Assembly (NCBI GenBank): GCA_947627985.1
Contig: CANQYD010000020.1
Location: forward strand, 1-38,857
From: an uncultured Clostridia bacterium
GTDB lineage: Bacteria > Bacillota > Clostridia > Oscillospirales > Ruminococcaceae
Direction of reading: 5' to 3'
DNA: 38,857 nt
Below the pieces are notes generated by a model. The model saw only the letters and a list, made by a program, of their open reading frames with translations, searched no databases and was not told the origin of the DNA. This document shows positions 1 through 38,857 of this stretch, one piece after another. Positions within the stretch are counted from its first letter, which is position 1. Each line of letters opens with the position of its first letter. The translations under genes were made by a program, and so were the position numbers.

Positions 1-217
1 GAACCCCCGGCGAGGGTTCCCCCGATGAAAACAGTCCACCGGACTGTTTTCATTTCCCCCTCCTGCGCTTATAGATAAAAAAATCAAGAATATGTCCGCA
101 AGCGTACATATTCTTGCTTGGGGATTTCGCCCGTTGCGACGGGCGACGAGGGGCTCTGCCCCTCGACCCCGCCCGCTTTTTAAGGAAAAGCGGGGCAAAA
201 CCTTTTTGACTTGTCCC
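1..217 (-). repeat. Hairpin repeat island, copy E1 of a four-copy composite element
   Basis: This region has no gene. Read on the minus strand from 217 to 85 it matches three other places in the window (20046-20210, 24700-24854, 26357-26515). It holds a conserved GACAAGTCAA head, a stem at 172-195, a stem at 147-165 (CGAGGGGC/GCCCCTCG), a stem at 128-145 (CGCCCGT/ACGGGCG, loop CGCA on the minus strand), an AAATC link, and an 11-bp stem at 85-116 (CAAGAATATGT/ACATATTCTTG). The last stem occupies the place of the GGACAGC hairpin in the other copies but has an unrelated sequence. A separate 14-bp hairpin lies at 24-52. The module at 1-20 (GAACCCCCGGCGAGGGTTC) recurs near 12460. Confidence 0.75.
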
Positions 218-19575: not shown

Positions 19576-20013
19576 TTACGCCTCCAAAGCGATAGTAAAG
19601 GGACCGTCGCAGAGCATGTCGATCTTCATATCCGCTCCGAAAACGCCTTTTTGAGGGATATGCCCAAGCCCCGCAAGATCATCGCAAAACCGCTCGTATA
19701 GGGCATTTGCAAGCTCCGGCTTAGCCGCGTTTATGAAGCTCGGGCGGTTGCCGTGGGAGCAGTCAGCAAGAAGGGTGAACTGCGACACCGCGAGGATTTC
19801 GCCGCCGACCTGTGATAGGGAGAGGTTAGTTTTGCCGTTTTCATCGGGGAATATTCTCAGGGCGGCGATCTTTTTTGCGAGCGCCGAGCATTTGTCTGGT
19901 GTGTCTCCGTCGGCGGCGCCAAAGAGGACGAGGTACCCGCGGGCGATTTTTCCCACGGATTTCCCGGACACCGAGACCTCGGCGCGAAGTACGCGTTGGA
20001 TTACAGCTTTCAT
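19576..20013 (-). CDS. dtd: D-aminoacyl-tRNA deacylase
   Basis: This 145-residue enzyme removes D-amino acids and glycine mischarged on tRNA. The length and motifs match Dtd: MKAVIQRVLRAEVSVSGK at the N-terminus, ISQFTLLA-type block AVSQFTLLADCSHGNRPSF near 78-96, and the C-terminal DGPFTIALE, the cross-subunit NxP/GP-T motif. The start at 20013 is chosen from the conserved MKAVIQRV; a longer frame begins at 20052 but would overlap the neighbouring repeat's flank. GGTGAT lies just upstream. It is translated ahead of the ArsC-like gene. Confidence 0.94.
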   Translation of the reverse strand: MKAVIQRVLRAEVSVSGKSVGKIARGYLVLFGAADGDTPDKCSALAKKIAALRIFPDENGKTNLSLSQVGGEILAVSQFTLLADCSHGNRPSFINAAKPELANALYERFCDDLAGLGHIPQKGVFGADMKIDMLCDGPFTIALEA

Positions 20014-20045
20014 TTTATCACCAAGTCTTTGCAATAGTTTTAGTC

Positions 20046-20210
20046 GAGACAAGTCAAGTTTAGGATCAAGCCCTTTTTAAAGGGCTTGCGGGGGTCTCGG
20101 GGGCAGAGCCCACGAGTCGCGCTCCGCAGAGCGCGAAATCTCAGCAAAAAGGACAGCGACAGCTGTTCTTTTTGCTTTTATCGTTCAAAAGAGGGCGACG
20201 AAGTCGCCCG
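20046..20210 (+). repeat. Composite hairpin element, copy E2
   Basis: In order: GAGACAAGTCAA head; stem AAGCCCTTT/AAAGGGCTT (20068-20087); stem CTCG-G-GGGC/GCCC-A-CGAG (20096-20116, loop AGA); stem CGCGCTC/GAGCGCG with loop CGCA (20118-20135); AAATC; 14-bp stem GCAAAAAGGACAGC/GCTGTTCTTTTTGC (20144-20175); TCGTTCAAAAGA; and stem GGGCGAC-GAA-GTCGCCC (20193-20209). It lies between dtd and the ABC transporter. Confidence 0.8.
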
Positions 20211-20214
20211 AAGC

Positions 20215-20770
20215 TGGAGGGGCGTGGGGAAACCCGCAGGGGTGCCCCACAGCCGAGCGAAGCGAGGCATGACCCCCCCTCTCCCTTCAGGGAGAGGGGA
20301 CGGGGGAGAGGGTAAGCCCCTCCCCACCGGGGAGGGGTTGTGGAGGGGGGACGCCCGGAAAGAGGTTTGGGGAAAACCCCGCAGGGGTTTTCCCCAACAA
20401 AAATCGGCGACGCAGTCGCCCGGAGCCGAGCGCAGCGAGGCACGACCCCCCTCTTCCTTCAGGGAGAGGGGTTGGGGGAGAGGGTACAAAGCCACTCCCC
20501 ATCGGGGAGGGGTTGGGGTGGGGAGAAGCCGGAGGGGCGTGGGGAACCCCGCAGGGGGTGCCCCACAGCCCGAGCGCAGCGAGGCACACCCCCCTCTCCC
20601 TTCAGGGAGAGGGGACGGGGGAGAGGGTACAAAGTCCCTCCCCATCGGGGAGGGGTTGGGGTGGGGGAAAAGCCGGAGGGGCGTGGGGAACCGTGCAACG
20701 GTGCCCCACATTCGGAAAAGGGGTTTGGGGAACCCCGCAGGGGTGCCCCACAGTCGGAAAGGAGTTACAA
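20215..20770 (+). repeat. Tandem hairpin units, GCA-loop family
   Basis: About four imperfect units of roughly 140-175 bp begin near 20215, 20355, 20531 and 20676. Each has a GTGGGGAACCCC-GCA-GGGGTGCCCCAC type hairpin, a CGAGCG-A/C-AGCGAGG link, a CCCTCTCCCTTCAGGGAGAGGG stem and a CCTCCCC-ATCG-GGGGAGG stem. The first stem varies with compensation: ACCCC/GGGGT, ACCGT/ACGGT (unit 4) and AAAACCCC/GGGGTTTT (unit 2). No gene is supported here. Confidence 0.75.
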
Positions 20771-20845
20771 GTGAAGCCCCCTTCCCCAAAGGTTTCTCCC
20801 CTAAAATTCATACCCAAATAGTCGCCCTAAAATATCCTACCCCTG

Positions 20846-23791
20846 TCACTCCGTCCTCAGCGCCACCACCGGATCCTTCTTAGCCGCAATCCCCGACGGT
20901 ATCAGCCCCGCGATCAGCGTCAGAGCCATGCTTATCGCTACCAAGATCACAGCCCCCGACACCGGCAGAATCGCCGAAAGATTGTCGATCCCGGTGAGGT
21001 GGTGAAGTATCAGATTTATCGGCAGCAGCAGCGCTAAAGTGATCCCGATGCCCAGCGCGCCCGCGACAAATCCAACGATGAGCGTCTCGGCGTTAAAGAC
21101 CCTCGAAACGTCCTTTTTCGACGCACCGACAGAGCGCAGAATGCCGATCTCCTTCGTCCTTTCGAGGACGGAGATGTAGGTGATGATCCCGATCATGATG
21201 GAGCTCACTATCAGCGAGATCGCGACAAAGGCGATCAAAACGTAGCTTATCGCCGAGATGATGGTCGTGACCGAGCTCATTAAAAGCTTGACGTAGTCGG
21301 TGTAGACGATCTGATCTGCCTCGTCCCCGGCTTCGTTGTATTCCTCGATCGCGTCCGAGATGAAGTCCTTGTTTTCAAAGGTCGAGGCGTAGATATATAT
21401 CGACCTCGGCGAATCGGGATCGACCTTTCCCAAAAGCTTCATGTTGCCGTCATAGGTCGAATCAGAGCGCGTCGACGGCAGATGATTTTCATATATATAT
21501 TGATACTGCTCCGCCGTAATTTCGGCGCGATCGAGCATGGCTGCGGCTTCCGCAACGCTTAAAGAGCCCATCTGAGCCTGAATCCCCTCGGCATACTGCT
21601 GGGTGATGGAAGCCGTCAGTACCTGCGTGACGTACCCTTCTTTGGTCTCGGCGTCCATGTTTTTGATATAGTCGAGCACCGTAGCCTCATCCATCTGCGT
21701 CTGCGAGACAAAAGCCTGCATGAGCATGTTGTCGATCGCCTGATCATCAAGCGTCTGGCGGTACTGAGCGATGGTCGAGCTGAGATATTCTTCGGACGGA
21801 ATGGACGCAAGCTCGGTATAAAGAGCAGCCTTCTCGGCGCTTCCCTGCTCGGCTATCCAGTTGTCGACGGCTTCCCTGACTTCCTCTTCACTCGGCTCTT
21901 CCCCGTCTACGGCGAATTTGAGACCCGAGATGACGTCGACCTCCGGATTATCCTCCTGAGCCTTGACGATATCGCTCTCGTTAGTCCTCCTGATGACCTC
22001 TCTTGTGAGAGCCGGGGTATAGCAGACGGCGCCGTTTAGGAAGTTAGAGACGGCGTTTTCGCTCGGTCTTAAGATACCTACGACCTTTAATTTGATGGTG
22101 CTGTCGGCGTTATAGAGATAGTCGAGCCCCGTATCAGTTTCCGATACGTCGGTATATTTATCGCCGGTTTTCTGATATTTATCGCAGTTTAAAACCACTC
22201 TGAAATCGAGGTTCATGATGTCATCATATGTCCAGCTGCCGAATTCGGAGGTATCAACTTTCTCCTGATTTGCGGCGGCTTTCATCGCGTCCTGAATCTC
22301 GTCCATCGTCTTAAGACCGAGGGCGTAGAGCATCATGTCGGAGAGCTCGTTTCTGTCGCTGATGACGACCATCACTTCATCATAATTTTCAGCCCATCTT
22401 CCCGCGACAAGCTCGTTCTGTTCCTTAATAAGATCGTTGATCGGCTCGCCGTCCAGACCTTCGAGCATTTCCTGCCAAGCGTTTATCTGCATGAAGCTTG
22501 AGAGCACCGAACTCGAGGTCTCAAATCCCATCATCGAATAGATACCGCTCATCAGCTCCAAGATGTCGGATTTTACGATATCTCCCTCTTTATTTCTGAC
22601 ATAGACCGTCATCGGGTTGTCGTAGACATAGCTGACGGCTGACGAATACTGTCTGATTTTGTCGGTATTTTCGATATAATCCTTGAATTTTACGAGATTG
22701 TTTTCCTGCGTCTCCATCGAGTTGACGGAGTTCATCATCTCATACATTATCTTCGACTCATAGACCTTGTCGAGATCATGTCCAGCCTCTGCGCTGCCGT
22801 TTGCGGTGTCCCGAAGCGACGTCATCAGCTGGGTCATATCGACCTCCTGAGCGTTTATCGTAATAGGATAGCTCGATAAAGTGTCCTCCTGAACTCTGTC
22901 GATATAGTTCTGCACGCCTGTCGACACTGAGAGTATCAGCGCGATACCGATGATTCCGATAGAGCCCGCGAAGGCGGTCAGAATAGTTCTCGCCTTTTTG
23001 GTCATGAGGTTATTTAAAGATAGAGAAAGCGCCGTAAAGAAGGACATCGAGGTCTTTTTCGACTTCTCGGGTCGCTGAATTTCATCGGTATGGCTTAGCT
23101 GCTCGGTGCTGCTGTCATAGGGGTCGGAGTCGCTTTGGATCTCGCCGTCAAGGAGGCGTACCGTTCGGGAGGCGTATTTTTCGGCAAGCTCGGGGTTATG
23201 CGTGACCATGATGATCAGCTTATCCTTGGAAATTTCCTTTAAAATATCCATGATCTGGACCGAAGTCTGTGAATCGAGGGCGCCTGTCGGTTCATCTGCA
23301 AGCAAAATCTCGGGATCATTCACGAGCGCCCTTGCGATGGCGACGCGCTGCATCTGTCCTCCCGACATCTGATTCGGCTTCTTTTTGAGCTGGTTCCCGA
23401 GCCCGACCCGTTCAAGAGCCTCTTTGGCGCGGCGGCGTCTCTCGGATTTACCGACGCCCGAGAGGGTCAGCGCGAGTTCGACGTTTGACAAAACGGTCTG
23501 GTGGGGGATAAGGTTATAGCTCTGGAATACGAAGCCGACGGAGTGATTTCGGTAGGAATCCCAATCGGAATCGCGGAATTTTTTGGTGCTCTTTCGGTTG
23601 ATGGAAAGGTCGCCCGAGGTATACTGATCGAGCCCGCCGATGATGTTTAAAAGGGTGGTCTTGCCGCAGCCCGACTGTCCCAGAATCGCGACGAATTCGC
23701 TCTTTCTGAATTCGATGGAGACCCCGTTGAGAGCTCTTACCTTGTCACCGCCGGCGTCGTAGTCCTTGACAATATTTTCAAGTTTTAACAT
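20846..23791 (-). CDS. MacB-type ABC transporter, ATPase fused to FtsX-like permease
   Basis: This is a 981-residue fusion. Residues 1-225 form the ATPase: Walker A GQSGCGKTTL near 38-47, Q-loop FQSYN, signature MSGGQMQRVAIARAL near 143-157, Walker B ILLADEPTGALDSQ near 163-176, and the H-switch VTHNPEL. A linker leads to the first membrane helix near 272-292 (ILTAFAGSIGIIGIALIL). A very large outer domain of about 550 residues follows, then three C-terminal helices in the FtsX pattern (YVLIAFVAISLIVSSIMIGI, a helix after GRT-type KEIGILRSVGAS, and the last near 945-970). Members act as mechanotransmitters or export peptides, drugs or lipoproteins. No two-component pair lies beside it, so the substrate is open. 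It has its own promoter. Confidence 0.92.
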   Translation of the reverse strand: MLKLENIVKDYDAGGDKVRALNGVSIEFRKSEFVAILGQSGCGKTTLLNIIGGLDQYTSGDLSINRKSTKKFRDSDWDSYRNHSVGFVFQSYNLIPHQTVLSNVELALTLSGVGKSERRRRAKEALERVGLGNQLKKKPNQMSGGQMQRVAIARALVNDPEILLADEPTGALDSQTSVQIMDILKEISKDKLIIMVTHNPELAEKYASRTVRLLDGEIQSDSDPYDSSTEQLSHTDEIQRPEKSKKTSMSFFTALSLSLNNLMTKKARTILTAFAGSIGIIGIALILSVSTGVQNYIDRVQEDTLSSYPITINAQEVDMTQLMTSLRDTANGSAEAGHDLDKVYESKIMYEMMNSVNSMETQENNLVKFKDYIENTDKIRQYSSAVSYVYDNPMTVYVRNKEGDIVKSDILELMSGIYSMMGFETSSSVLSSFMQINAWQEMLEGLDGEPINDLIKEQNELVAGRWAENYDEVMVVISDRNELSDMMLYALGLKTMDEIQDAMKAAANQEKVDTSEFGSWTYDDIMNLDFRVVLNCDKYQKTGDKYTDVSETDTGLDYLYNADSTIKLKVVGILRPSENAVSNFLNGAVCYTPALTREVIRRTNESDIVKAQEDNPEVDVISGLKFAVDGEEPSEEEVREAVDNWIAEQGSAEKAALYTELASIPSEEYLSSTIAQYRQTLDDQAIDNMLMQAFVSQTQMDEATVLDYIKNMDAETKEGYVTQVLTASITQQYAEGIQAQMGSLSVAEAAAMLDRAEITAEQYQYIYENHLPSTRSDSTYDGNMKLLGKVDPDSPRSIYIYASTFENKDFISDAIEEYNEAGDEADQIVYTDYVKLLMSSVTTIISAISYVLIAFVAISLIVSSIMIGIITYISVLERTKEIGILRSVGASKKDVSRVFNAETLIVGFVAGALGIGITLALLLPINLILHHLTGIDNLSAILPVSGAVILVAISMALTLIAGLIPSGIAAKKDPVVALRTE

Positions 23792-23841
23792 ATAAGCGCC
23801 TCCTTGGAATTATGTATAAAAATATGCCTATATTCTTGTTC

Positions 23842-23870
23842 ATTATAACATATACTCCGGCGGATTTCAA
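23842..23870 (-). promoter_or_regulatory. Sigma-A promoter of the ABC transporter
   Basis: On the minus strand TTGAAA (23865-23870), a 17-nt spacer and a perfect TATAAT (23842-23847) precede the start by 50 nt. AAGGAGG follows. Confidence 0.8.
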
Positions 23871-23937
23871 GAAATTCATGTGACAGCGAGGTGAAAATTC
23901 AATAAAAGAAGCGGGAGGAAGACATCTCCCGCATAAT

Positions 23938-24141
23938 TTATCTGAAAAGCGCGCAGGTCCCGGATTCCCGGAAATAGCGGATTTTTTGCTCGATCGCCTC
24001 TCTTGAGACGCCGAGGTATTCGGCGAGGCAGTCGATGCATAAAAATTCGTCGGCGGTGCGAAGGATCAGCTTTTTGTAGATGGCGATGTCGTCCTGACAG
24101 AGCTTTGCGCCGCATTTTTTGCAGGTGGAGAAGTTGGACAT
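23938..24141 (-). CDS. Small zinc-ribbon-like protein
   Basis: This 67-residue protein of unknown function has CKKCGAKLC near residues 7-15 and CIDC near 35-38, a four-cysteine pattern fit for one zinc ion. The C-terminal half (EYLGVSREAIEQKIRYFRES) looks like a small helix-turn-helix or helical hairpin, so nucleic-acid or protein binding is possible. GAAGGT lies about eight nt upstream. It is followed after about 70 nt by the ABC transporter promoter. A different longer frame overlaps it but has no support. Confidence 0.75.
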   Translation of the reverse strand: MSNFSTCKKCGAKLCQDDIAIYKKLILRTADEFLCIDCLAEYLGVSREAIEQKIRYFRESGTCALFR

Positions 24142-24284
24142 GTGAGACCTTCTTTCGGGGTGGAGTGGGGGAGTGCGTGCGGTGGGGTGATGATGGCGCG
24201 GTGGGACAGAGGGGAGTTTACCGGGAGACTGCGGGGGCGGTTATTCATGCCGAGCGGGACAGAGGGGAGTTTGGGGGGATGGAC

Positions 24285-24500
24285 GGCGTGTTGCCTTGCC
24301 GGGCAAGGCACCCCCGAGGGGAGAACCTTTTTAGGAAAAGGTTCTCCCCTTAGACCCCTCTCCTAAAATTTCCCCCACCCCAACCCCTCCCCATTTTAGG
24401 GGGAGGGGCTTCGCTTTACTACAAGTCTGCACAGACTTCGACTGGGGTGGGGGTCTGCTTAAAATAGCATGAGTTCATTTTCCGGCGGGAAAATGAACGA
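24285..24500. repeat. Cluster of strong hairpins
   Basis: This gene-free stretch has GCCTTGCC/GGGCAAGGC near 24292, a perfect 15-bp stem AGGGGAGAACCTTTT/AAAAGGTTCTCCCCT (24317-24350, loop TTAGG-like as in element E1), CCCTCCCC/GGGGAGGG near 24387-24407, AAGTCTG-CA-CAGACTT (24423-24438) and an 11-bp GTTCATTTTCC/GGAAAATGAAC stem (24473-24498). Upstream, GGGACAGAGGGGAGTTT occurs twice (about 24205 and 24258). Confidence 0.65.
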
Positions 24501-24584
24501 ATACATTTTAACAAAGGGTAGGAGAGGGCGGGGACTACTGTTTTATATTTAAGCCGGTGTTTAATTTTTCCCGGACGTCGCTGC

Positions 24585-24854
24585 TAAGTTGGGGACAACC
24601 CCTGCGGGGTTTTCCCCATACCTCTTTCCCATTTGCCCTCACCCCCAACCCCCCCTCCCAAGGGAGAGGGGGCATTTGAGCCTCGCTTCGCTCGGCTCCG
24701 GGCGACTTCGTCGCCCTCTTTTGAACGATATAAGCAAAAAGGACAGCTCTCGCTGTCCTTTTTGCGAGGATTTCGCGCTCTGCGGAGCGCGACCAAGGGC
24801 TCCGCCCTTGGAACCCGCAGCCTTGAAAGGCTGGCGAACTTTTTGCCTTGTCTC
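24585..24854 (-). repeat. Composite hairpin element copy E3 with an attached GCA-loop module
   Basis: From 24854 down to 24700 on the minus strand it matches E2 and E4: GAGACAAGGCAA head, stem CAGCCTT/AAGGCTG (24818-24833), stem CCAAGGGC/GCCCTTGG (24793-24811), stem CGCGCTC/GAGCGCG with loop CGCA (24774-24791), a perfect 14-bp GCAAAAAGGACAGC stem (24734-24765) and GGGCGAC-GAA-GTCGCCC (24700-24716). A CGAGCGAAGCGAGG link, a purine/pyrimidine stem and a GGGGACAACCCC-TGC-GGGG hairpin continue to about 24585. It lies directly after the GH27 stop codon and its U-rich 14-bp hairpin could serve as that gene's terminator. Confidence 0.8.
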
Positions 24855-24890
24855 AACTAAGGTTTGGGTTCTGAATCTATCTTCTGCCCT

Positions 24891-26087
24891 CTAACCCTCT
24901 ATCTTCTTTAAGCCTGCGCCCTGAGCGTCCGTCTTGACAAGCTTCACTCTGTACATCTCGCAGCAGTGCGGCTTGATATCGGTGCAGAACCTCTCTTTGA
25001 ACGTCCCGACGGTTTTGTGCTCCCAAACATCATAGAACTCAAGCGCAAACCCGGAGTTGTAGGGCAGACCCATATCCCAGAAATTGAAACTGAACTGCGC
25101 CGGGTTCTCGCCGTTGCCGAAGTTGACCATCAGGATCGCATAATCGCCGTTCTCAAGCGGCTTTACAAGCCCCTTGCAGCTCTCGTTGCACCAGTGGTCG
25201 ATCTCGATGGATCCTCTGCCCTCGGGGTCCTGATTGATCGCGATGACGTCTTTGTTCATAAGGATTTTTTTGGTATTTTCACTCATATTTCTGATGTCGC
25301 AGCCGATCATCAGCGGGGAATTCATCATCGCCCAGAGCGAGAAATGGGTCTTGTACTCGTCGTCGGTGCAGCCGAATCCGCCTTCGGCGATCCAGCTGTT
25401 ATCCGATTTACCGCTCATGCCGACGACCAGCATATCGATATCATTCCAGCAATACACGCCCGACTGGCTCTGTCTCATGTTGAGCTGTGAGAGGGCGAGA
25501 TTTTTGATGGAATTCCAGCTGTCCTGAATATCTCCCGTCGAGCGGAACATCTGCGCGCCGGTGTTTCTGATCCAATCGTGTACGCCGTCGTTGCCCCAGT
25601 TGCATGCCGAAAAGAGGATATCTCTTCCGCAATTTCTGAGAGCCATCGACATTCTGCGGTACAGAATTTCCCCGGGAATACCCTTGGGTTTGAAGCAGTA
25701 GTCGTACTTCAAGAAGTCCACGCCCCAGGAGGCGAAGGTAGCGGCGTCCTGAAATTCATGTTCAAACGAGCCGGGGTAGTTGGCGCAGGTATGGGTTCCG
25801 GAGCAGGAATATATCCCGAATTTGAGACCTTTTGAGTGTACATAATCGGCTACGGCTTTGATACCGTTCGGGAATTTTTTGGGATCGGGCACAAGGCACC
25901 CGTTTTCGTCGCGATCCATAAGACTCCAGCAGTCGTCGATGACGACGTACTCATAACCGGCGTCCTTAAGACCGGTCTCGACCATAGCGTCTGCGGCGCC
26001 CTTGATGAGATTTTCGTCGATATTCCAGCTGAAAGTGTTCCACGAATTCCAGCCCATCGGCGGGGTAAGTCCTAAATTTTTCGGCAT
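24891..26087 (-). CDS. Alpha-galactosidase, glycoside hydrolase family 27
   Basis: This 398-residue enzyme should remove terminal alpha-galactosyl residues from oligosaccharides such as melibiose, raffinose or galactomannan fragments. GH27 hallmarks are LTPPMGWNSWNTF near residues 7-19, YEYVVIDDCWS near 45-55, LKFGIYSCSGTHTCANYPGS near 89-108, the nucleophile Asp in DFLKYDYC near 125-132, and the acid/base Asp in YCWNDIDMLVVGM near 183-195. A short C-terminal beta domain follows. There is no signal peptide, so it acts in the cytoplasm on imported sugar. GGAGG lies eight nt before the ATG. It is a single-gene unit with a consensus promoter and a possible operator. Confidence 0.95.
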   Translation of the reverse strand: MPKNLGLTPPMGWNSWNTFSWNIDENLIKGAADAMVETGLKDAGYEYVVIDDCWSLMDRDENGCLVPDPKKFPNGIKAVADYVHSKGLKFGIYSCSGTHTCANYPGSFEHEFQDAATFASWGVDFLKYDYCFKPKGIPGEILYRRMSMALRNCGRDILFSACNWGNDGVHDWIRNTGAQMFRSTGDIQDSWNSIKNLALSQLNMRQSQSGVYCWNDIDMLVVGMSGKSDNSWIAEGGFGCTDDEYKTHFSLWAMMNSPLMIGCDIRNMSENTKKILMNKDVIAINQDPEGRGSIEIDHWCNESCKGLVKPLENGDYAILMVNFGNGENPAQFSFNFWDMGLPYNSGFALEFYDVWEHKTVGTFKERFCTDIKPHCCEMYRVKLVKTDAQGAGLKKIEG

Positions 26088-26126
26088 GGCATGATCCTCC
26101 TTAAAAATATTAAATCTACCGGGGAT

Positions 26127-26155
26127 ATTATATCAGCGCGCAGGGAGAATGTCAA
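26127..26155 (-). promoter_or_regulatory. Consensus sigma-A promoter of the GH27 gene
   Basis: On the minus strand a perfect TTGACA (26150-26155), a 17-nt spacer and a perfect TATAAT (26127-26132) stand 39 nt before the start. Confidence 0.88.
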
Positions 26156-26166
26156 GACAATTCATC

Positions 26167-26186
26167 AAAAATTCCGTACAATTTTT
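26167..26186. promoter_or_regulatory. Inverted repeat just upstream of the GH27 promoter
   Basis: AAAAATT-6 nt-AATTTTT lies 11 nt upstream of the -35 box. Its place and symmetry suit a regulator site, but no regulator gene is beside it. Confidence 0.4.
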
Positions 26187-26356
26187 CATTCTTCGATGAT
26201 GAGATTCTCCACCCCGTGGCGGAGCAAAACATTTAGAAGCCGGAAATGAGAGGTCAGAGGGCAGAGGCAAAGCTTTCGCTCTCTGCGGTTCAATAGGCTT
26301 TCAGCGTATAGAAGATAGAGGGTTAGAGGTTAGAAATCCCGCGCCGAGCCTTAGCG

Positions 26357-26584
26357 GAGACAAGTCAAGTTTAGGATCAAGCCCTTTTTAAAGGGCTTGC
26401 AGAATCCAAGGGCGGAGCCCTTGGTCGCCCGTCGCAACGGGCGAAATCCTAAAAAAGGACAGCGAGAGCGGTCCTTTTGCTTTTAGCGTTCAAAAGAGGG
26501 CGACGAAGTCGCCCGAAGCCGAAGGGGTGTGGGGAACCGTGCAACGGTGCCCCACAGAGCCGAGCGAAGCGAGGCGAGAAGCCC
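26357..26584 (+). repeat. Composite hairpin element copy E4 with an attached GCA-loop module
   Basis: GAGACAAGTCAA head, stem AAGCCCTTT/AAAGGGCTT (26379-26398), stem CCAAGGGC/GCCCTTGG (26406-26424), stem CGCCCGT/ACGGGCG with loop CGCA (26426-26443), AAATC, an 11-bp AAAAGGAC/GTCCTTTT stem with one mismatch (to 26480), GGGCGAC-GAA-GTCGCCC (26498-26514), then GTGGGGAACCGT-GCA-ACGGTGCCCCAC and the CGAGCGAAGCGAGG link. The rest of 26088-26783 shows no gene; GCGCCGAGCCTTA before the element is also found beside E1. Confidence 0.8.
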
Positions 26585-26783: not shown

Positions 26784-29700
26784 TTACCTTCTCTTGACCG
26801 CCGGCGCGATCGCTGCCGCAAGAAGCAGAGCAATTCCGCTGCCGAGCGTGCCTGTTATGGGGTTGGGCACGCTTTCGTCGGGGACTTCTTCCTTGCTTTC
26901 GCTGCTGCCGCCCTCGGTAGGCGTGATTATCTCGACCGCGTCCTCCGGCACCGTATCGGGAACGGGTCGCGAAGGATATGACGGAACGCGGGCTGTGACG
27001 GTCTCGTTGACTGCGACGGCTTTAGATTCACTGTCGGCTGTTATTATGCCGGAAAGACCTGAACTGTTTCCGCTGAGCAAATAATATCCGTATGCGTGCT
27101 CTTCCGTGACTGCATATTGAACGCCTGCGGGAAGTCCGGTCATAGTAACGCTCTCACCCCCGTTAAGTTCTGCCCGAGCGACGCCGTTATCAAATCTTAC
27201 GCCGTTTGCATCACCTGTAAAGTCAGAACCCAAAAGCTCAATCTTGAACGTGAACTTTCTTCCGCCTTTAACCGTTCTGCCGTCGGCAACTAAAATCTTG
27301 CTGAGCGTAAGGCTGCCGGTTTTCGGCGCTTCGACGGTCTTGATGTTATTGTAGATCAGCCCGACCGTGCCGACGTCGGCAACGCCCTTAAGCTTTTCGG
27401 TTGAATCGGTATAGCCGTCGGGAACATTTATCTCGGTAATCTCATACTCAGCGCCGAACGGAACTGTCAGAACGACCGTTGCGCCGCCATCTACAGAAAC
27501 CGCAGCTTTGCCGTTTGCAAAGCCGTTTTCCGAGTATTCGGGGCGGTTTGTGAGGCTGACCTCAAAGGAGAAGCTTCCCTCGGCATATTCTTTGCCGCCC
27601 GAATCTAAGACCTTCTTTGTAAGCCTTATCTCGGCGAGGTCCGGGTCGGGGCGGGTATAGGTATTGATGAACACAACAGGGTTGGGGCTTGCCGTCGCGA
27701 CAACAGCGTTGTTCTCATCGTCATAGGTAACGCTTACAGTTACAAGCTGTGCGTCAGCATAGCTCATTCCCTTGACGCCGCCGTCGGTCTCGGTAATCAT
27801 GTAATAGAAGCTGCTACCGATGTCGCTTGCGGTGAATTTGCGTGTGATGAATGTATCAGCGCCCTCGCCCGTGATATGAAGCTCGCCGATTATGTCGCCT
27901 GTCAGTGGCACGCCGCTTTGGTCCGTCTCGGTGACGGTGAAATCAAAGGTAAAGCTTTCGCCGCCGATATCATCGCCCTCAATAAGCTTCTGAACGGTTA
28001 TTTCCGCACTCGACGGCGTTGGCGGCGCTTTTGGTGCGACATAATGATTTTCAAACACGATAGGCTCAATAGGCGTCGCTGCAAGAATTCCGTTGACCTC
28101 GGTGACGGTGACGACCGCAAGCTTCTCATCGATAACGGTGTAAAGCTCGCCGCCCTCGGGCGCATCGCCGATATATTTCGCGCGCTCCTTGATTGAATAG
28201 GTATAGGTTCCCGCCCTTTCAAAGCTTAAATCAACAGTTCCGTATCCTTCCTCATCACCCTTATTTACGGTGACGTTTGCAAGATGGTTTCCGCTTGCGT
28301 TTGTTATCGGGCTGCCCGATGGGTCAAAAGCGCTGATGAGCTCAACGTCAAAGCTGAAAGTAAGAGCGTTGTCCTTGGTCGCACCCGCTTGGTCAAAGGT
28401 CTTTGTGATGGAAAGCGAGGTGTTCGCAGGCTCAGGCTCGGGCTCGGGTTCGACGTGGTTATAGAACGTAACCGAAACATGCTCGCCGCCCTTGACGTCG
28501 CCTGCGGCAGCATTTGACGGGGTTTCGGCGACAGTCATTATTCCGTAGAACGGATCGTAATACGTCGGCGTAAACGCTCCCGTGTTTGAAATAGTTACTG
28601 TGTGACCGTTCGGGTCGGTCTCGGTGATGATATAGTGGATATCCTCGGGCAGACCTTCAAGGCGAAGGCTTTCGCCGTGTTTGAGGCTGAATGCCGCATA
28701 ACCGCCCGTAACGCTGACATCTCTCGGCACGCTGCCGACGATTTTTCCCGTGAGGTTGACGTCGGCAGCCAAAACCTCGGGACTTCCCGCCGTGTCGTGA
28801 TAGTAAAGCTCGAGCGTGAACGGGAAGGCGTATGAGGCATCTCCGTCGCCTGTGACTATCTTCGAGACGGTGAGATCTCCCGTTCTGACGTTTTTCTGTT
28901 TAAGGTTGACGAACGCTGCGCTGCTTGTCTCGGCGTCTGAGATCATGCCCGTTGCGATAACGCCGATCTGCTCGCCCGCAACGCCGCTTTCATAGCCGTT
29001 CGTCCCGATCTCCTCGATCTTGTAGTAGAGCCCGACAGGCAGACCGACCGCCGTCACGCTTTCGCCGTCGGCAAGCGCGATATTTGCATCGACTCCGGCT
29101 TCAAAGTACATTCCGCCGAACTGTCCGCTCACCTCCTGCGCAGGCTCGCTTAACGCTGCGTCGTGATAGAGCGAAACCGCGAAGCCGAATATATCGGTAG
29201 ATTTGGCAAGGTTTCCGACCGCTGTCTTTGAAACGGTAAGCTGACCTGTTTTAATTGTGTTTACAAATACCGCGTATGCGTCCGCGACCGCGCCGTTCCC
29301 GTCGATAGCAATTACGCCGCTTGTATTATATCTGTCGACGATGTAGCTGCCGACCGCCTCAAGCTCGTCGACCTGATAGGCCGTGCCCGCGGGCAGACCG
29401 GAGATTTTGATTCTCTGTCCGTTATTAAGGCTGAATGTGCCCATTGTACCGAGTGTGCCGCTCTCGTCAATGACCTCAACGCCCATATAGTCGAAGTGAG
29501 ATATCGTGTAGTCAAACTCCGTATCGGTAAAATCTGATGGCAGACCGAGGCTGTAAGCGAATCCGAAAGTCTCGGGAATTATTGCCTCTGCGAGACCGGC
29601 AACGGTCTTTCTCACAATGAGCGAACCCGTCTGAACCACGGGCTTTGAGCGTTCGTTTTCAAATTTCACCGAAACCGTCTTGTTATTTTCTACAACGCCG

Positions 29701-32700
29701 GTATAGTAATTGCCGCTGACTCCGTTCACCGACGGGGTATATCCGAGTATGTTTTCGACCTCGCTAACGGTAAACTTCGCGCCGTCGGGAAGATTTTCAA
29801 ATTTTTTGCTCTCCCCCTGTCCGAGTTCAAACATCTCAGAGAGAATCGGGGTGATTCCGTCGTCGCCGTAAACATCAATAGTGAAGCTGAACCTGTCACC
29901 GGGGTTGAAATCGTTGCCCGTGAGTGTCTTGCGAACCTCAACACTGCCGACCTTCGGCTTTTCTTCGATCAGCACAACTGTCTCCGACGGGGTGCCGTCG
30001 GCGTATGCAATATTTCTCCAAGTAGTTCTCGCTGTCACCGGCGGCACTTTTACTCTGAAGCTTACAGCCGTCTGACTGTGCGCGCCGACTGAAAGCGTCC
30101 ATGTTATATTCTGTCCGTCAAGTGTTCCGCTGCCGATGTCATCGATAATAAGCCCTGTCGGGACGGGATCGATGACCTTAACCGCAGGCGCGTCAGCGTC
30201 GCCGTCATTAAAGACGGTAACGGTATATTCGACAATATCGTCCGCCTTTACGGTCAAAGGAGTGCCCGAAAGTCCGTTGACAGCCGTCTGGCTCTTTGTA
30301 ATCGTGATATGAGGCTTCGGGGCGGTATAGGTGTTAGTGAAAGTCACCTCCGAAACGCTCGGCTCAGCCGTGACGGTGTTTGTCGCGGGGTCATAGCCAA
30401 CCGTTACCGTGATATACTCGACGTGGTCATCGCAGTCAAAGTGAGGGTCGTTAAGGTCGGTCTCGGCGACGGTGTAGTAGAATGTCTTGCCGATGTCGCT
30501 TGCGGCGAATTTGCGTGTGATGAATGCAGCGGCGCCCTCGTTTGTGACAGTTATAGGGGATATCTGAGCTGCCCCTGCCAAAGGCTCGCGGTTTTCATCT
30601 GTCTCTGCGACTGTAAAGGTAAACGTAAAGCTTTCACCGCTCGGAAGCCCGTCGCCGTCGATGTCTTTTTTCACGGTGACATTCGCCGTCGCGGGTATCG
30701 CTTCGGGCGTATAGGTGTTAGTGAAAGTCACCTCCGAAACGCTCGGCACGGCTGTTACGGTGTTTGTCGCGGGGTCATAGCCAACCGTTACCGTGATATA
30801 CTCGACGTGGTCATAGCAGTCAAAGTGAGGGTCGTTAAGGTCGGTCTCGGCGATAGTGTAATAGTACGTCTTGCCGATGTCGCTTGCGGTAAATTCGCGT
30901 GTGATGAATGCAGCGGCGCCCTCGTTTGTGACAGTTATAGGGGATATCTGAGCTGCCCCTGCCAAAGGCTCGTGTTTTTCATCGGTCTCTGTGACTGTAA
31001 AGGTAAACGTAAAGTTTTCGCCGCTCGGAAGCCCGTCGCCGTCGATATCCTTTATCACGGTGACATTCGCCGTTACGGGTATCGCTTCGGGGGTATAGGT
31101 GTTTGAGAACACAATATCAGCCGTTACGCCCATTGCGTCCGTAACATCATAATTCGCGGATAAAACGCCGTCCTCCTTGCTGTAGCTTACCATTACCGTG
31201 ATATGATACTCGGCGGCGTCATAACTTACATGATTCGCATTGCCCGTCTCCTCGGTGACTTTGTAATAATAGTTTACAGAGCCGCCGTCCTTGATTGCGG
31301 GAATATCTTCAAGCTCAAAGGTTTTCTTAAGTAGATCAACTATCTGCTTTTGAGACGTGTTGCCGCTGCTTAATTCGCTGCCATAGAATGCAACGGTCTT
31401 TGATTCAGGCGAGCCGATTTCCGCCCAACCCTTATCGGTCTCGACCGCATTAAAAGTGAATGTGAATTCCTCGTCAGGCTCTGGCGCTTCGCCGTCCTCA
31501 ATAGTGAAGTTCTTGGCACCCGAAACTTCTATTTCGGCTGCAGCCGGGGTATAGATGTTCTCAAAGTCGAAGCCTTTAATATGGTTATCAACTATATCTC
31601 CGCTGTCAATGCTTGTATCGCCGACCTTGATATCATAGGTTGATTCAAGCGTACCCCCGTTGTCGGTAACGTTCACGGTGACGGTGTACTCCGTGTCGTC
31701 ATAGACGATTTTATCATCAGTTCCGGCAGTTTCCTTGATAGTATAGGTGTATTCCCCGGGCTTTGTGAAGGTGATTGCCCCGAAAGTGAAGCCGTGATTG
31801 TTGCTGTCGACAGATACTTCTCTCTGAGTGGGCAGGGGCTCGTCGCCCTCGATTGTAAATTCAAACTTATCGCCCGTTACCCAGTCGCGCCCCGTGAGTT
31901 CTTTCGTTCCGTCGAAATAAACTTCAATTTCGTCCGGAGCGTAAGTGTTGGTGTAAGACACCTTATCAGCGGGCTCGTTGTCGACTGTAGTGGTAACATT
32001 TAGCTTCTTGTCGACGGTATCTTTTTCCACATCGAATACAACGGTATGAACCGTTTTTTCATCGTAAACGAAGCCCTTGGTGTCGCTCGGGACAGTCTCG
32101 GTCACGGTATAGCAATATGTGCCTACCTTTTTGAAGGTCAGATCCCAGCTGCCGGAATTTGTCTTTGAAGTCGTGACATCGCCTGCGGGAGTCGCCTCAA
32201 AGTTAATCGTGACGGTATCTTCTTCAACAGTCGGATAATCACCGGGCGCTGCGGTGCCATTGGCGGTATCCGGCGCAATCTTAAACTCGAACGACGTCTC
32301 GCGGTCGGGCAGATATTCGCCCTTTATAGTTTTTTCAACGCTGATCGTCGCGGGGACAGAAAGCTCATAGGTATTCGTGACCTCGACCGTGTCGCCGTCG
32401 TCATCCGAAATAGTTTTGGTCTCGTCCGAGAATGTATATTCGGTTGTGAAGTTGTCAACAGGCTGCTCCTCTACGGTGTAAGTCACGCCGACGGGAATTC
32501 CCGAAATTACTGCGTTTTCATCGGCTTTCAGCTTTACTGTGCCATCGAAAGATGTCTCAGGTGCTCCGTTAATGCTGACGTTGATATTATCAAAATCATC
32601 GGCAGTAAGTTCATTAGCGCCGTTAAAGAATTTCACGTTAAAGGTGAATTCCTCATCGCCATCGGGCGCGAAGTCTGAGGATTTGTCTACGACCGTTTTT

Positions 32701-35700
32701 GAGATAGCGAGACTGCCCGTTTTGAGCGTTCCCCTTATCTCCGCAAGACCGAGAAGATTGTCAAGCCTATCCGCGCCTGTGCTCGCTGTGCCGAGCTTAA
32801 CCGTGCTCTCCGCACTTGTGTAAGAAGCTTTGTGACCGGCATTTCCGGAGGAAGCAGTTTGCATATTCCCGGAATCAAGATAAACATAATTGTTAAACCG
32901 ATCAAGCGCGTCCGTCAAATCCTCCACAAGCTTGACCGTATCAAACTCTATCGGCAAATCGTCGTTGGGCTTGGCGTTATCAAACGTATAGTCTCCTGTC
33001 GGGAGCAAATCTTTAAGAGCCGTTTCGCTTGCAGGCACAAACTCCGCATAGAGATATTTTTCACCGGTCGAAGCCGCCGAAGCAACCGCAGGGGTCCTGA
33101 CGGTAAATGTCCCTACGGTGATATCATTGCCGCCGTAATTTCTTGTAAGATCCGCGCTAAATAGCTCGGTATCGGGATAATACTTGCAAAGATAGTCATA
33201 ATCGGCGTCGCTGAGAACCGCTCTCAAAACAATCTGCCCGCGAACCATATCGACGGTGTGGGTGTTTACAATTTCGCTGAATCCGCTCTGAACCGCGCCC
33301 GCGGCGGGCTTGAAGCCCCTATCCCACTTATAATTACCGTCGCCGACAAGCGTGCCGTTGGCGGTGTTTCTGTCGGTTTCCACACCGCCGACTACGGAAG
33401 AGTCCGACTTAACGTTAAACGGATCAAAGCCCACGGTTAAGGTATATTTTCTTCCCTTTGCATAAAGAGTGATTACACTGCCGCCGTCTTTGTCGATCGT
33501 TTCGCCGCTGTCAAGATTATCCGTTTCATCTTTAAGGGTATAGGTGATATTTCCGATAATATCACCCTGATGAGCGTTATCGCCCGCATAGCTGTCGGCG
33601 TCGTTCTCGCTCTTTAAATAGGCATAGGGCAGAGTGAGAGTTTCCTCGCCGTCTTCAAGCCCCTCAAACAGCTCGGCAAGCTTAGTTTTGTTGTCATCTG
33701 TTCTGAGAAGATATTCAAAATACGGGCTGCCGGTTTTATTGTCGGCAATCTTTTGCTCGACAAGCGCAGTCATAATATCCTCGGGCGAAATTTTCTCACC
33801 GAGATAGATATCGCTGTTGCTTTCCGTCTTTTCAAGAGGCAGTCTTCTGACGTTTGCCGCCGTCCTCGGGAATCCCTTTGAGACATAGCCTCCCGACGAT
33901 ATGTCGACATTCGCCTTGTCCTTGCCCGAGCTTGCAATCAGTTCGCCCTCTGCATTGTTATCGTCAGGATTATATACATAATTCTGCTTCTCTTCACTGC
34001 CGTTTGTGAGTATGGCGTTGCCGCCGATGAAATCTTCCTTCGCGACGATTTTAAACTCGGAACGCCAGACCGTGAGCTCGCTGTCGCCGACGGTGCAGTA
34101 CGGGATATCCTGTTTGTCCCATGCGACATAGTACCCGCCGCCATCATAATAAAGGTTGAGGGCTTCGGAGCTTCCGTAGTCAGACGACAACTTAATTTCA
34201 AGAGGAGTGCTTGCGTTAATAGTTTGGCTCTTCTCTTCATTGTCAAGCGCATCGATATACTCGACTTTTCCGCCCTCGTTAAGGTGAAAGACCGTCTTTA
34301 CACCGTAATTTCCCGAATCAAACGTATAACCGACTATATCAAACCTCGGGTCGATATAGTCTTTAACGGTATAGTCATTGAGGGTCTTGGTTATTTCGTT
34401 GAGAATATCATTGCGGAATACATTGGTCAGACCTTCGGCTCCTGTGGCTTCAAATACATATTTGTGCCCGTCTGTGGAAGTACCGTTAAGAAGGTCATCA
34501 TAACCGCAAGACGCTGTGTCCGTGTTTCCCGCTATCGAAGCGATAAAGGTCTTCTCCGAGTCATCGATTGTTGCGAATGCGCCGCACTTTAAAAGAACAT
34601 AGAAAATCGTAAAGCCTTTTTCTTTAAGCCTTTGGGCAATTTCCTGTGAGTATGTAACCCTATTTTGGGCGTCTGTATCGTCCGTATCCTCGACATTGGT
34701 GTCCTTGCCGTCGGTAAAGACAATAACGTATTTGCTCTCGCCTTCATTGCGTTCGGAATCGTCGCGGGTTATTCTCGGAAGAAGAATATCCTCAAACGCC
34801 TTAAGCCCCTGATATGTGCTCGTGCCGCCGGTGAGACCGTAGTTATACTGCGGCATGGGCGATTGACTGCTATTCTCGTTTTCTGCGCTCGGCGTTGAGA
34901 GCTCGGAACCGGTAGAACTGCCGTCGCCATATTCAAGGCTGAGCATTTTTGCCGCCGCGGCAGGGTCTTTCGTCCAGTCAAGCATTACAAGCTTGCTGAG
35001 GGAATCCTTATCGTCCTTGACCTGTGCCGAGCTGAACCGAACCGCCGAAACGCGGCTGCTCGGCGAGATCTGCTCAAGTTCGGTATTGAAGATTCCGAGC
35101 GCTGCCTGAAGCGAATCCGTCTTGGTGTCTTCACAGTCCCACTTGAAGTAAACATAGGACGCCGAGCTTCTCGGACCTGAGGTGTTACCTGCCTCGGTTT
35201 TTGAGTTGCTGCTGCTGTAAAAACATCTGAGGAATCCCTCGTTGTCGATAAAGAATATAACGGGGCTTTGCTTTTCGTTGCCGCTGCGCGTTACGTCTGC
35301 GGGAACCGTTATTGCGGCTTTTCCCTCGTTTGGACCAAGTGCGTCTGCATAATCATATTCTTTTATATCTGTGATATAACCGCTTGGCTTGCCTTCATTC
35401 TCTTCCGCATCATAATCTGCATCATAATAATAGTGTGCAGAGCCGTCTGTTAATGTGAAATCATTTTCGCCCGTATAAATAAATCCGCCGTTGCATTCTT
35501 TAAAGTCATTCCAACCTTTTTCTAACTTTGCTTGAATGTTTTCGGGAAGGTCGTTAATTGAGATTTCATTCTTAATGACCTCGTCTTTAGAAAGAGCCTG
35601 AAATACCTTTGCAGTGCCGACTTCGGGGTTGTTATAGTTTTTGTCCCAGTTGCTGGTCGAGTTGACATAGTACCACCCGCGCATATCTTCTTCGTGACCC

Positions 35701-38651: not shown

Positions 38652-38857
38652 CAGACACACTCCGTTCTAATATTTGCGTTATTGCAAGGGTTTCAAAACG
38701 GACCTTGCGAAAAGGTGTACATTATTGTAAGTTATTTTTTGCCAGATTTTTTGGGCGAAATCATTAAAATTTCTTCTTGGATGTTATGTTAAAATAGATC
38801 TGTTACAAAAAGTAGCAGCCAAACGCTTCAAAAAATGTTATGATGAAATAACTGCAA
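38652..38857. other. A+T-rich upstream region of the adhesin gene
   Basis: No gene is seen. The best minus-strand promoter candidates are weak (for example TTGTAA with TAACAT, near 38779-38806), so no promoter is called. Confidence 0.4.

Follow-up and report, generated by a model that had tools for sequence, protein, structure and literature searches.

What kind of element gives rise to hairpins whose two arms change together while the loops between them stay the same? The question is raised by a 38,857-nucleotide stretch of DNA from an uncultured member of the Ruminococcaceae (contig CANQYD010000020.1; the whole stretch is referred to here as the window), in which a preliminary description noted four composite elements and read their paired changes as a mark either of selection on structure, as for an RNA, or of a mobile element that needs hairpins. 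Inspection of the window sequence finds all four, designated E1 to E4, where they were placed and with the order given, namely a head, stems 1 to 3, AAATC and stem 4 (Table 1). E1 and E4 carry TCGC-CCGT-CGCA-ACGG-GCGA as stem 3, and E2 and E3 carry TCGC-GCTC-CGCA-GAGC-GCGA; three base pairs thus differ on both arms and the loop CGCA is kept. The sequences given for stem 2 are likewise present (CCAAGGGC/GCCCTTGG in E3 and E4, CGAGGGGC/GCCCCTCG in E1), E2 has CTCGGGGGC there with one mismatch, and stem 4 of E1 keeps its position with a sequence unrelated to those of the other copies. Two amendments are needed: the head of E3 reads GACAAGGCAA, and stem 1 varies as well, with three sequences among the four copies. 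Comparison of predicted folds with those of shuffled sequences gives z = -6.2 for E4 and z = -6.15 for E1, as is expected of any hairpin-rich sequence. The flanking genes are ordinary and include a TrkH-like transporter, a glutamate dehydrogenase (GDH), a D-Tyr-tRNA deacylase (DTD), an ABC/FtsX protein (ABC), an alpha-galactosidase-like protein (MEL), and a single 3958-aa open reading frame (26784-38660, minus strand) that fills the right third. We also note a 12/12 match to TTGACA-17-TATAAT at 26127-26155 on the minus strand, upstream of MEL and downstream of the location of E4.

Table 1. Coordinates in the window of the four composite elements and their parts.
Feature	Position	Strand	Basis
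E4, full composite element (head, stems 1 to 5)	26357..26515	+	Sequence and BLAST query
E4 stem 1, allele CAAGCCC/GGGCTTG	26378..26399	+	Sequence, module typing, folding
E4 stem 2, allele CCAAGGGC	26406..26424	+	Sequence, module typing, folding
E4 stem 3, allele CCGT/ACGG, loop CGCA, followed by AAATC	26425..26444	+	Pattern match
E4 stem 4, terminator-like hairpin, GAGA loop	26453..26478	+	Sequence, folding
E4 stem 5, GGGCGAC/GTCGCCC; TCTTTT follows on the minus strand	26498..26514	+	Sequence, terminator scan
Purine-rich array of TTAGAGG-type units, upstream of E4 head	26310..26337	+	Sequence
E2, full composite element, in the ABC-DTD gap	20046..20210	+	Sequence, relatives compared
E2 stem 3, allele GCTC/GAGC	20117..20136	+	Pattern match
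E2 stem 4 with T-run	20143..20176	+	Listed by terminator scan
E3, full composite element, between MEL and the 67-aa gene	24700..24854	-	Sequence, relatives compared
E3 stem 3, allele GCTC/GAGC	24773..24792	-	Pattern match
E3 stem 4, terminator-like hairpin	24734..24765	-	Sequence
Purine-rich array; starts about at the MEL stop of relatives and contains the present stop	24874..24905	-	Relatives compared
E1, composite element, stem 4 of another allele	85..217	-	Sequence
E1 stem 3, allele CCGT/ACGG	127..146	-	Pattern match
E1 stem 4, AATATGT allele, T-run after	85..116	-	Sequence, module typing
E1 tail hairpin AAAACAGTCCGGTGGACTGTTTT in the place of stem 5; similar hairpins in other genomes	27..51	-	Sequence

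The four copies are real, and four is an undercount. A stem-3 pattern in which none of the eight inner arm bases is specified (TCGC-N4-CGCA-N4-GCGAAATC) has 115 matches in the 2.16-Mb genome that contains the window and none in the reversed control, and with the loop free as well (TCGC and GCGAAATC fixed) there are 120 matches, again with none in the control; these numbers are not attributable to chance. A BLAST search of the same genome with E4 gives at least 41 matches (40 of 168 candidates scored). The preliminary description had proposed searching relatives too, and these are also positive: the free-armed pattern is present in 10 of 30 other genomes of the same genus and in none of the 29 genomes in the same draw that belong to other genera of the family or order, and across the order it occurs in 19 of 295 genomes (own genome included), representing 12 of 148 genera and seven family groups, with a control of zero throughout. 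The named strain Butyricicoccus pullicaecorum DSM 23266 has 45 copies, and a scan of named genomes with a narrower stem-3 pattern returned at least 114 stretches, mostly from metagenome-assembled genomes called Oscillospiraceae, Ruminococcus or Clostridia, with B. pullicaecorum among them. The copy positions listed for that strain match those of G145, a genome sampled from the window's order, which places strain and window in one order. The family is therefore large and is found in several family groups of the order. A phage or plasmid vehicle was considered and rejected, as E4 matched no phage record and among plasmids just a 37-base piece, in 13 Pseudomonas records, and the narrower pattern found one IMG/VR contig (L234). 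Tandem stem-3-type hairpins about 25 bases apart with the loop CGCA occur in three loci (L061 7101-7175, L070 6615-6660 and L088 7801-7875), with neighbouring stems that differ in the two that were read, L061 and L070.

No family had been recognised in the preliminary description, and the window contains no Rfam 15 family at the gathering threshold and no tRNA; 15 searched loci of the 114 from named genomes gave two tRNAs and nothing else. We recognised no account of the element in the literature searched, a scope that mostly excludes subscription papers, and five element sequences searched for as text in the literature were not found. The family is real, large, and without a description in the literature searched.

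To what extent do the arms of the stems change together? In the own genome, 76 loci (541,548 bases, window included) yield 103 distinct copies, and 93 of 99 own copies with a CGCA loop have perfectly paired stem-3 arms. The loop is CGCA in 115 of the 120 genome-wide matches in which arms and loop were left free and in 41 of 42 copies at loci chosen by BLAST alone; the counts over all loci (99/101 in the own genome, 125/128 in named genomes) are biased upward because many loci were picked with the loop fixed. Covariation was assessed in a wider set of 71 copies, to which each named genome or handle contributed one (a handle may duplicate a named genome; two of 72 genomes had no usable copy). 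The search patterns prescribed the loop and the four outer pairs of these copies, and the narrower pattern also fixed the second inner pair as C-G and limited the last to Y-R. With these constraints, 99.6% of stem-3 cells are paired, against a mean of 82.9 after shuffling, 90 cells are changed on both sides (23.4 in shuffles), and the covariation score is 0.428 (0.102 in shuffles, sd 0.013), none of the three being reached in 500 shuffles. Two other counts, of pairs changed on both sides and of pair types, do not rise above the shuffles (126/500 and 199/500). The claim of paired change with fixed loops therefore holds in the wider set by three measures, with two others at the shuffle level.

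Paired change of this kind could be imposed on RNA or on DNA, and the two can be distinguished by the mismatches, since a strand-neutral process should leave wobble pairs and A-C mismatches in equal numbers. Over 1420 hairpins in 283 copies the ratio of wobbles to A-C mismatches is 47:20 (p = 0.001), and with distinct hairpin sequences alone (253-copy set) it is 37:20 (p = 0.03). The excess lies in stems 1 and 2 (17:3) and stems 4 and 5 (28:14); the script gives 2:3 for stem 3, for which a hand tally of four listings gives 13:13 (own genome 5:1, genus 1:10, order 2:2, handles 5:0). Wobbles make up at least 0.39% of pairs, a lower bound in that the parser scores wobbles as mismatches and trims ends; in an RNA held by its structure, more wobbles are expected than are found here. 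The fold predicted for E4 suggested a multibranch RNA closed by pairing between spacers, and this found no support when partners were permuted over 219 copies (31 with an unparsed stem 2 dropped): 11 of 12 covariation tests have p > 0.1, the exception (p = 0.04) being the 5' lead of stem 1 in named genomes with Watson-Crick pairs only. Selection on RNA structure is thus only partly supported, by the wobbles of stems 1, 2, 4 and 5 and not by stem 3, and we conclude that the hairpins are local, tightly kept, and only partly under sense-strand constraint.

It is in this light that a structured RNA family has to be weighed, either a small RNA or a protein-binding 3'-UTR RNA in which loops such as CGCA are binding sites. 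The covariation of stem 3, the constancy of its loop both genome-wide and at the BLAST-picked loci, and the wobble excess of stems 1 and 2 would all fit, but stem 3 shows no wobble excess, no covarying helix joining the hairpins was found, and the patchy presence and module shuffling described below argue against one conserved RNA function. The lack of an Rfam family at threshold in the window also speaks against it. The closest resemblance is to LOOT RNA (RF03000), which gave the best weak match to E3, spanning the head and stems 1 to 3; this candidate was rejected, as the match is poorly aligned and scores 18.5 bits, far below the gathering threshold of 46.4. LOOT RNA has no match in 31 genomes searched, although none was obtained in the 14 control genomes either. 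We regard a structured RNA family as quite improbable.

Comparison of the 103 copies shows that each hairpin position is occupied by one of a small set of discrete alleles: four at stem 1 plus two insert-bearing forms, four at stem 2, four common ones at stem 3 (CCGT, GCTC, TCAC and TCGT), five at stem 4 and three at stem 5. What had been described as compensation is therefore, within one genome, mostly a choice among a handful of ready-made hairpin alleles. The 87 copies typed at all five positions, 16 incompletely typed ones being left out, present 63 different combinations. Mutual information exceeds all 2000 shuffles solely for stems 1 and 2, 2 and 3, and 4 and 5 (the insert-bearing forms excluded from tests with stem 1); stems 1 and 4 are borderline (p = 0.04), and the other six pairs, including the neighbours 3 and 4, have p > 0.1. 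Alleles of non-neighbouring hairpins thus assort nearly at random, and linkage is lost over short distances. The two arms of one hairpin behave differently, in that arms of the two main stem-3 alleles are mixed in one of 103 own copies as against 68% expected from free assortment. The hairpins are inherited as units, yet they are shuffled between copies. B. pullicaecorum has the same shuffling habit with a partly different allele set: of 25 copies taken, the 20 that are fully typed have 19 combinations of stems 1 to 4, or 13 when stem 3 (11 alleles there) is left out, and in this small set stems 1 and 3 are the sole nominally linked pair (p = 0.04). Gene calling, module typing and hairpin parsing were all done with custom scripts.

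Mosaics could also arise if short-read assembly had joined different copies of a repeat. The genome is in 72 contigs, some of which end in or beside copies (first positions 86-295; C3, C6, C13, C20, C34 and C49), as would be expected of such an artefact. However, stitching at random would mix the two arms of a hairpin, and they hardly ever mix; the copies of B. pullicaecorum DSM 23266, apparently from an isolate assembly, are mosaic too. This explanation is largely refuted, and we consider it very improbable.

In 12 of the 103 own copies the stem 1/stem 2 part holds a second repeat, which is also present at this position in one copy each of three other genomes (G018, G004 and G028). The repeat has two related forms, one with ends like TTACATGC.GGTTTTGT ... 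ACAAAACC..GCATGTAA. It seems to be a nested element with a preference for a hairpin target. The loci concerned are L025 (about 5910), L031 (about 1063), L152, L159, L162, L167, L168, L171, L173, L174, L179 and L187, and also L203, L206 and L207.

Among the 93 own copies with a called gene on both sides, 72 are in sense with the preceding gene (p = 1e-7) and 21 are antisense, and in 43 of the 72 the centre of stem 3 lies 88-140 bases past the end of the gene, so that the head starts about 10-60 bases after the stop codon. Gaps with an element are convergent or divergent in a ratio of 40:7, compared with 53:38 for all neighbouring genes of the same loci (element-holding gaps included), and some convergent gaps contain two head-to-head copies 322-533 bases apart (six loci). 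At the loci from named genomes, where 59 copies were dropped because a gene was missing on one side, 50 of 73 are in sense and the ratio is 26:6 against a background of 74:75. An earlier version based on a crude list of open reading frames, replaced by codon-scored genes because repeats form spurious frames, pointed in the same direction (65/96 in sense). The upstream genes of the 72 sense copies end in TAG in 29 cases; in 19 the stop continues as TAG-R-N-G, matching the purine-rich array, and 14 have a purine content of at least 75% over the 30 bases that follow the stop. Most copies thus follow a gene in sense, many of them just past its stop codon. Within the window, E3 is a typical sense copy, E2 and E4 are among the 21 antisense ones, and E1, at the contig end and outside the 93, is antisense to the gene at its 5' end. 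This sense placement after genes, together with the separate shuffling of hairpins that stay whole, is the strongest result of the analysis.

Stem 4 is shaped like an intrinsic terminator of the sense strand. It could be parsed in 100 of the 103 copies, of which 80 have a T-run after it on the sense side and none has an A-run before it, and 54 of 85 stem-4 tetraloops are GNRA. A terminator function is likely; a general terminator scan over the region found no excess (10, compared with 8.9 in shuffles). That all copies might be independent intrinsic terminators, which the preliminary description named as a refuting case, does not hold, because the copies share sequence throughout; a terminator-like hairpin is nonetheless one of the modules.

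Have the elements moved? At two junctions of the window they are missing from relatives. MEL and a 67-aa gene overlap, abut or are at most 79 nt apart in all 12 relatives compared, and are separated here by 749 nt with E3 between them. The MEL protein of the relative G018 closes with ...DLNK-stop, and the next start codon follows four bases on; here the protein reads ...GLKK and continues into the purine-rich array, and the inserted stretch therefore starts approximately at the stop codon. The ABC-DTD gap is 38 nt in G018 and 793 nt here with E2, G018 being the only one of four relatives with both genes that has this order; the other three are arranged differently. Relatives thus lack E2 (G018) and E3 (12/12) at matching gene junctions; the preliminary description had proposed looking for such empty sites in sister strains. 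No target-site duplication was seen by eye at the E3 boundary in comparison with these relatives, which are diverged. The inserted stretches carry other hairpin repeats beside the elements: further GC-rich repeats at 20210-20846 and 24300-24700, of the types CCCTCTCCC..GGGAGAGGG and GGGGAACCCCGCAGGGGTGCCCC plus variants with a GCA loop, make up much of them.

The order and orientation of MEL, the 67-aa gene, ABC, DTD and GDH (window 19576-26087; loci L190, L195, L196 and L198 of relatives) vary among close relatives, with single genes or pairs flipped. Compared with G018, MEL and the 67-aa gene are jointly flipped with respect to ABC. This flip is not explained by recombination of E3 with E4, because E3 sits between MEL and the 67-aa gene, whose mutual orientation is kept.

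As to the machinery, a Y1 transposase (PF01797, E <= 0.001) is found in six of 11 element-bearing and two of 19 element-free genomes of the genus (p = 0.03), with matches that are partly partial or weak and in which RAYTs are not separated from other Y1 proteins, and a reverse transcriptase (PF00078, E <= 0.001) in six of 11 (with the match in the element-bearing genome G000 below the cut-off) and three of 19. Neither is thus common to all 11 element-bearing genomes. Within the genus, a Y1 transposase is accordingly not supported as an obligatory partner, five of the 11 having no match, and neither is a reverse transcriptase, as for a retroelement-derived repeat, which is not matched in all. 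The mobile-element part of the preliminary description thus gains empty sites in relatives, with no enzyme or target-site duplication found, and its overall reading of either structure or mobility is partly supported.

The same data bear on whether the element is purely selfish, a MITE- or REP-like palindrome with hairpins that a transposase recognises as single-stranded DNA and whose location at stop codons reflects tolerated insertions. Empty sites, patchy distribution, the strand-neutral 13:13 of stem 3 and the association with Y1 matches, some of them partial or weak, are all consistent with this. However, nearly half of the element-bearing genomes of the genus have no Y1_Tnp match at E <= 0.001, neither the strong sense orientation nor the one-sided T-run of stem 4 is required by such an element, and simple transposition does not give separate shuffling of hairpins. 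We consider a purely selfish element unlikely.

We favour, with moderate confidence, a REP/BIME-like mosaic element that serves as a dispersed non-coding 3'-end terminator cassette of Oscillospirales chromosomes. The cassette would comprise, often, a purine-rich array near the stop codon, then stems 1, 2 and 3, AAATC, the terminator-like stem 4 and more hairpins, and would end, and possibly protect, the upstream transcript. New copies may arise by insertion and survive mainly at gene ends, and copies may exchange modules where they share short spacers, through recombination or copy-choice. Arms would change together either because a broken hairpin is selected against or because it is rewritten from the other arm by template switching, and loops and spacers would be held by whatever reads them. 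Against the cassette reading count the antisense position of three of the four window copies (E1, E2 and E4) relative to the gene at their 5' end, the terminator scan without excess, the strand-neutrality of stem 3, the scarcity of wobbles, the multibranch closure of E4 that does not co-vary, and the failure to find a target-site duplication or an enzyme. A bolder and less likely reading is that of a new class of mobile 3'-end element that lands at stop codons, carries a terminator, and is built of combinatorial hairpin cassettes with hairpin-templated rewriting or swapping of stems; if this is true, structure and loops persist under a constant turnover of sequence, which keeps the copies distinct.

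The repeat family belongs to an order with many gut members and is present in a named strain, and the element may terminate the transcripts of many genes and break up operons at the places where it inserts. With many stem alleles, a fixed loop and shuffled neighbours, it is a natural experiment on palindrome evolution that could help to tell whether selection on RNA, selection on DNA hairpins or template-switch correction is at work. It is also a warning that paired stem changes alone are no proof of a functional RNA.

Several known systems resemble the element in part. In the double-hairpin elements of fungal mitochondria, hairpins likewise form mobile pairs in which stems change on both arms and loops are kept; these elements differ in the genomes they inhabit, in size and in sequence. 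Intrinsic terminators are matched by stem 4, with its frequent GNRA loop, its sense-side T-run and its position in many copies after a stop codon. Ordinary intrinsic terminators are not known to be homologous to one another, whereas stem 4 is one exchangeable module of a repeated cassette. Among clostridia, the accessible part of a survey of stem-loop families names C. perfringens and C. tetani (PMC2267715).

The closest comparison is with REPs and BIMEs. In the accessible text of one account, REPs are short palindromes that carry a tag and lie mostly downstream of genes and in gaps flanked by convergent or unidirectional ones, with an unpaired GTAG (or CGTC) at one end of the stem (PMC3733652), and that of another ties them to a GT(A/G)G head and to RAYT genes, the homologues described there being found only in gammaproteobacteria (PMC2817692). 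The element shares with them, as far as these texts describe them, a high copy number, palindromic structure, an intergenic and downstream location, a mosaic habit and a suggested role in termination or at mRNA ends (PMC3733652, PMC2817692): here copies are dispersed, palindromic and mosaic (115 matches; 63 combinations in 87 copies), downstream of genes (72/93) and in convergent over divergent gaps (40:7). It differs in having no GTAG tag in the flanks tested, since the 10 bases 5' of stem 2 and on both sides of stem 3 in the 103 copies contain GTAG in none, CTAC in one and GACG in none, and the 10 occurrences of CGTC are all 5' of stem 3, that is, inside the stem 2 arm. It also consists of several different hairpins in a fixed order, not copies of one, its stems are exchanged as alleles, and it has a built-in terminator-like hairpin with a T-run. 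It has no constant Y1/RAYT partner, and its hosts are Oscillospirales and not the gammaproteobacteria reported for RAYTs in the accessible text (PMC2817692). Because position, abundance and mosaic habit agree with REPs and BIMEs, and there is neither a tag in the flanks tested nor a constant Y1 partner, the family is a REP/BIME-like variant rather than a REP.
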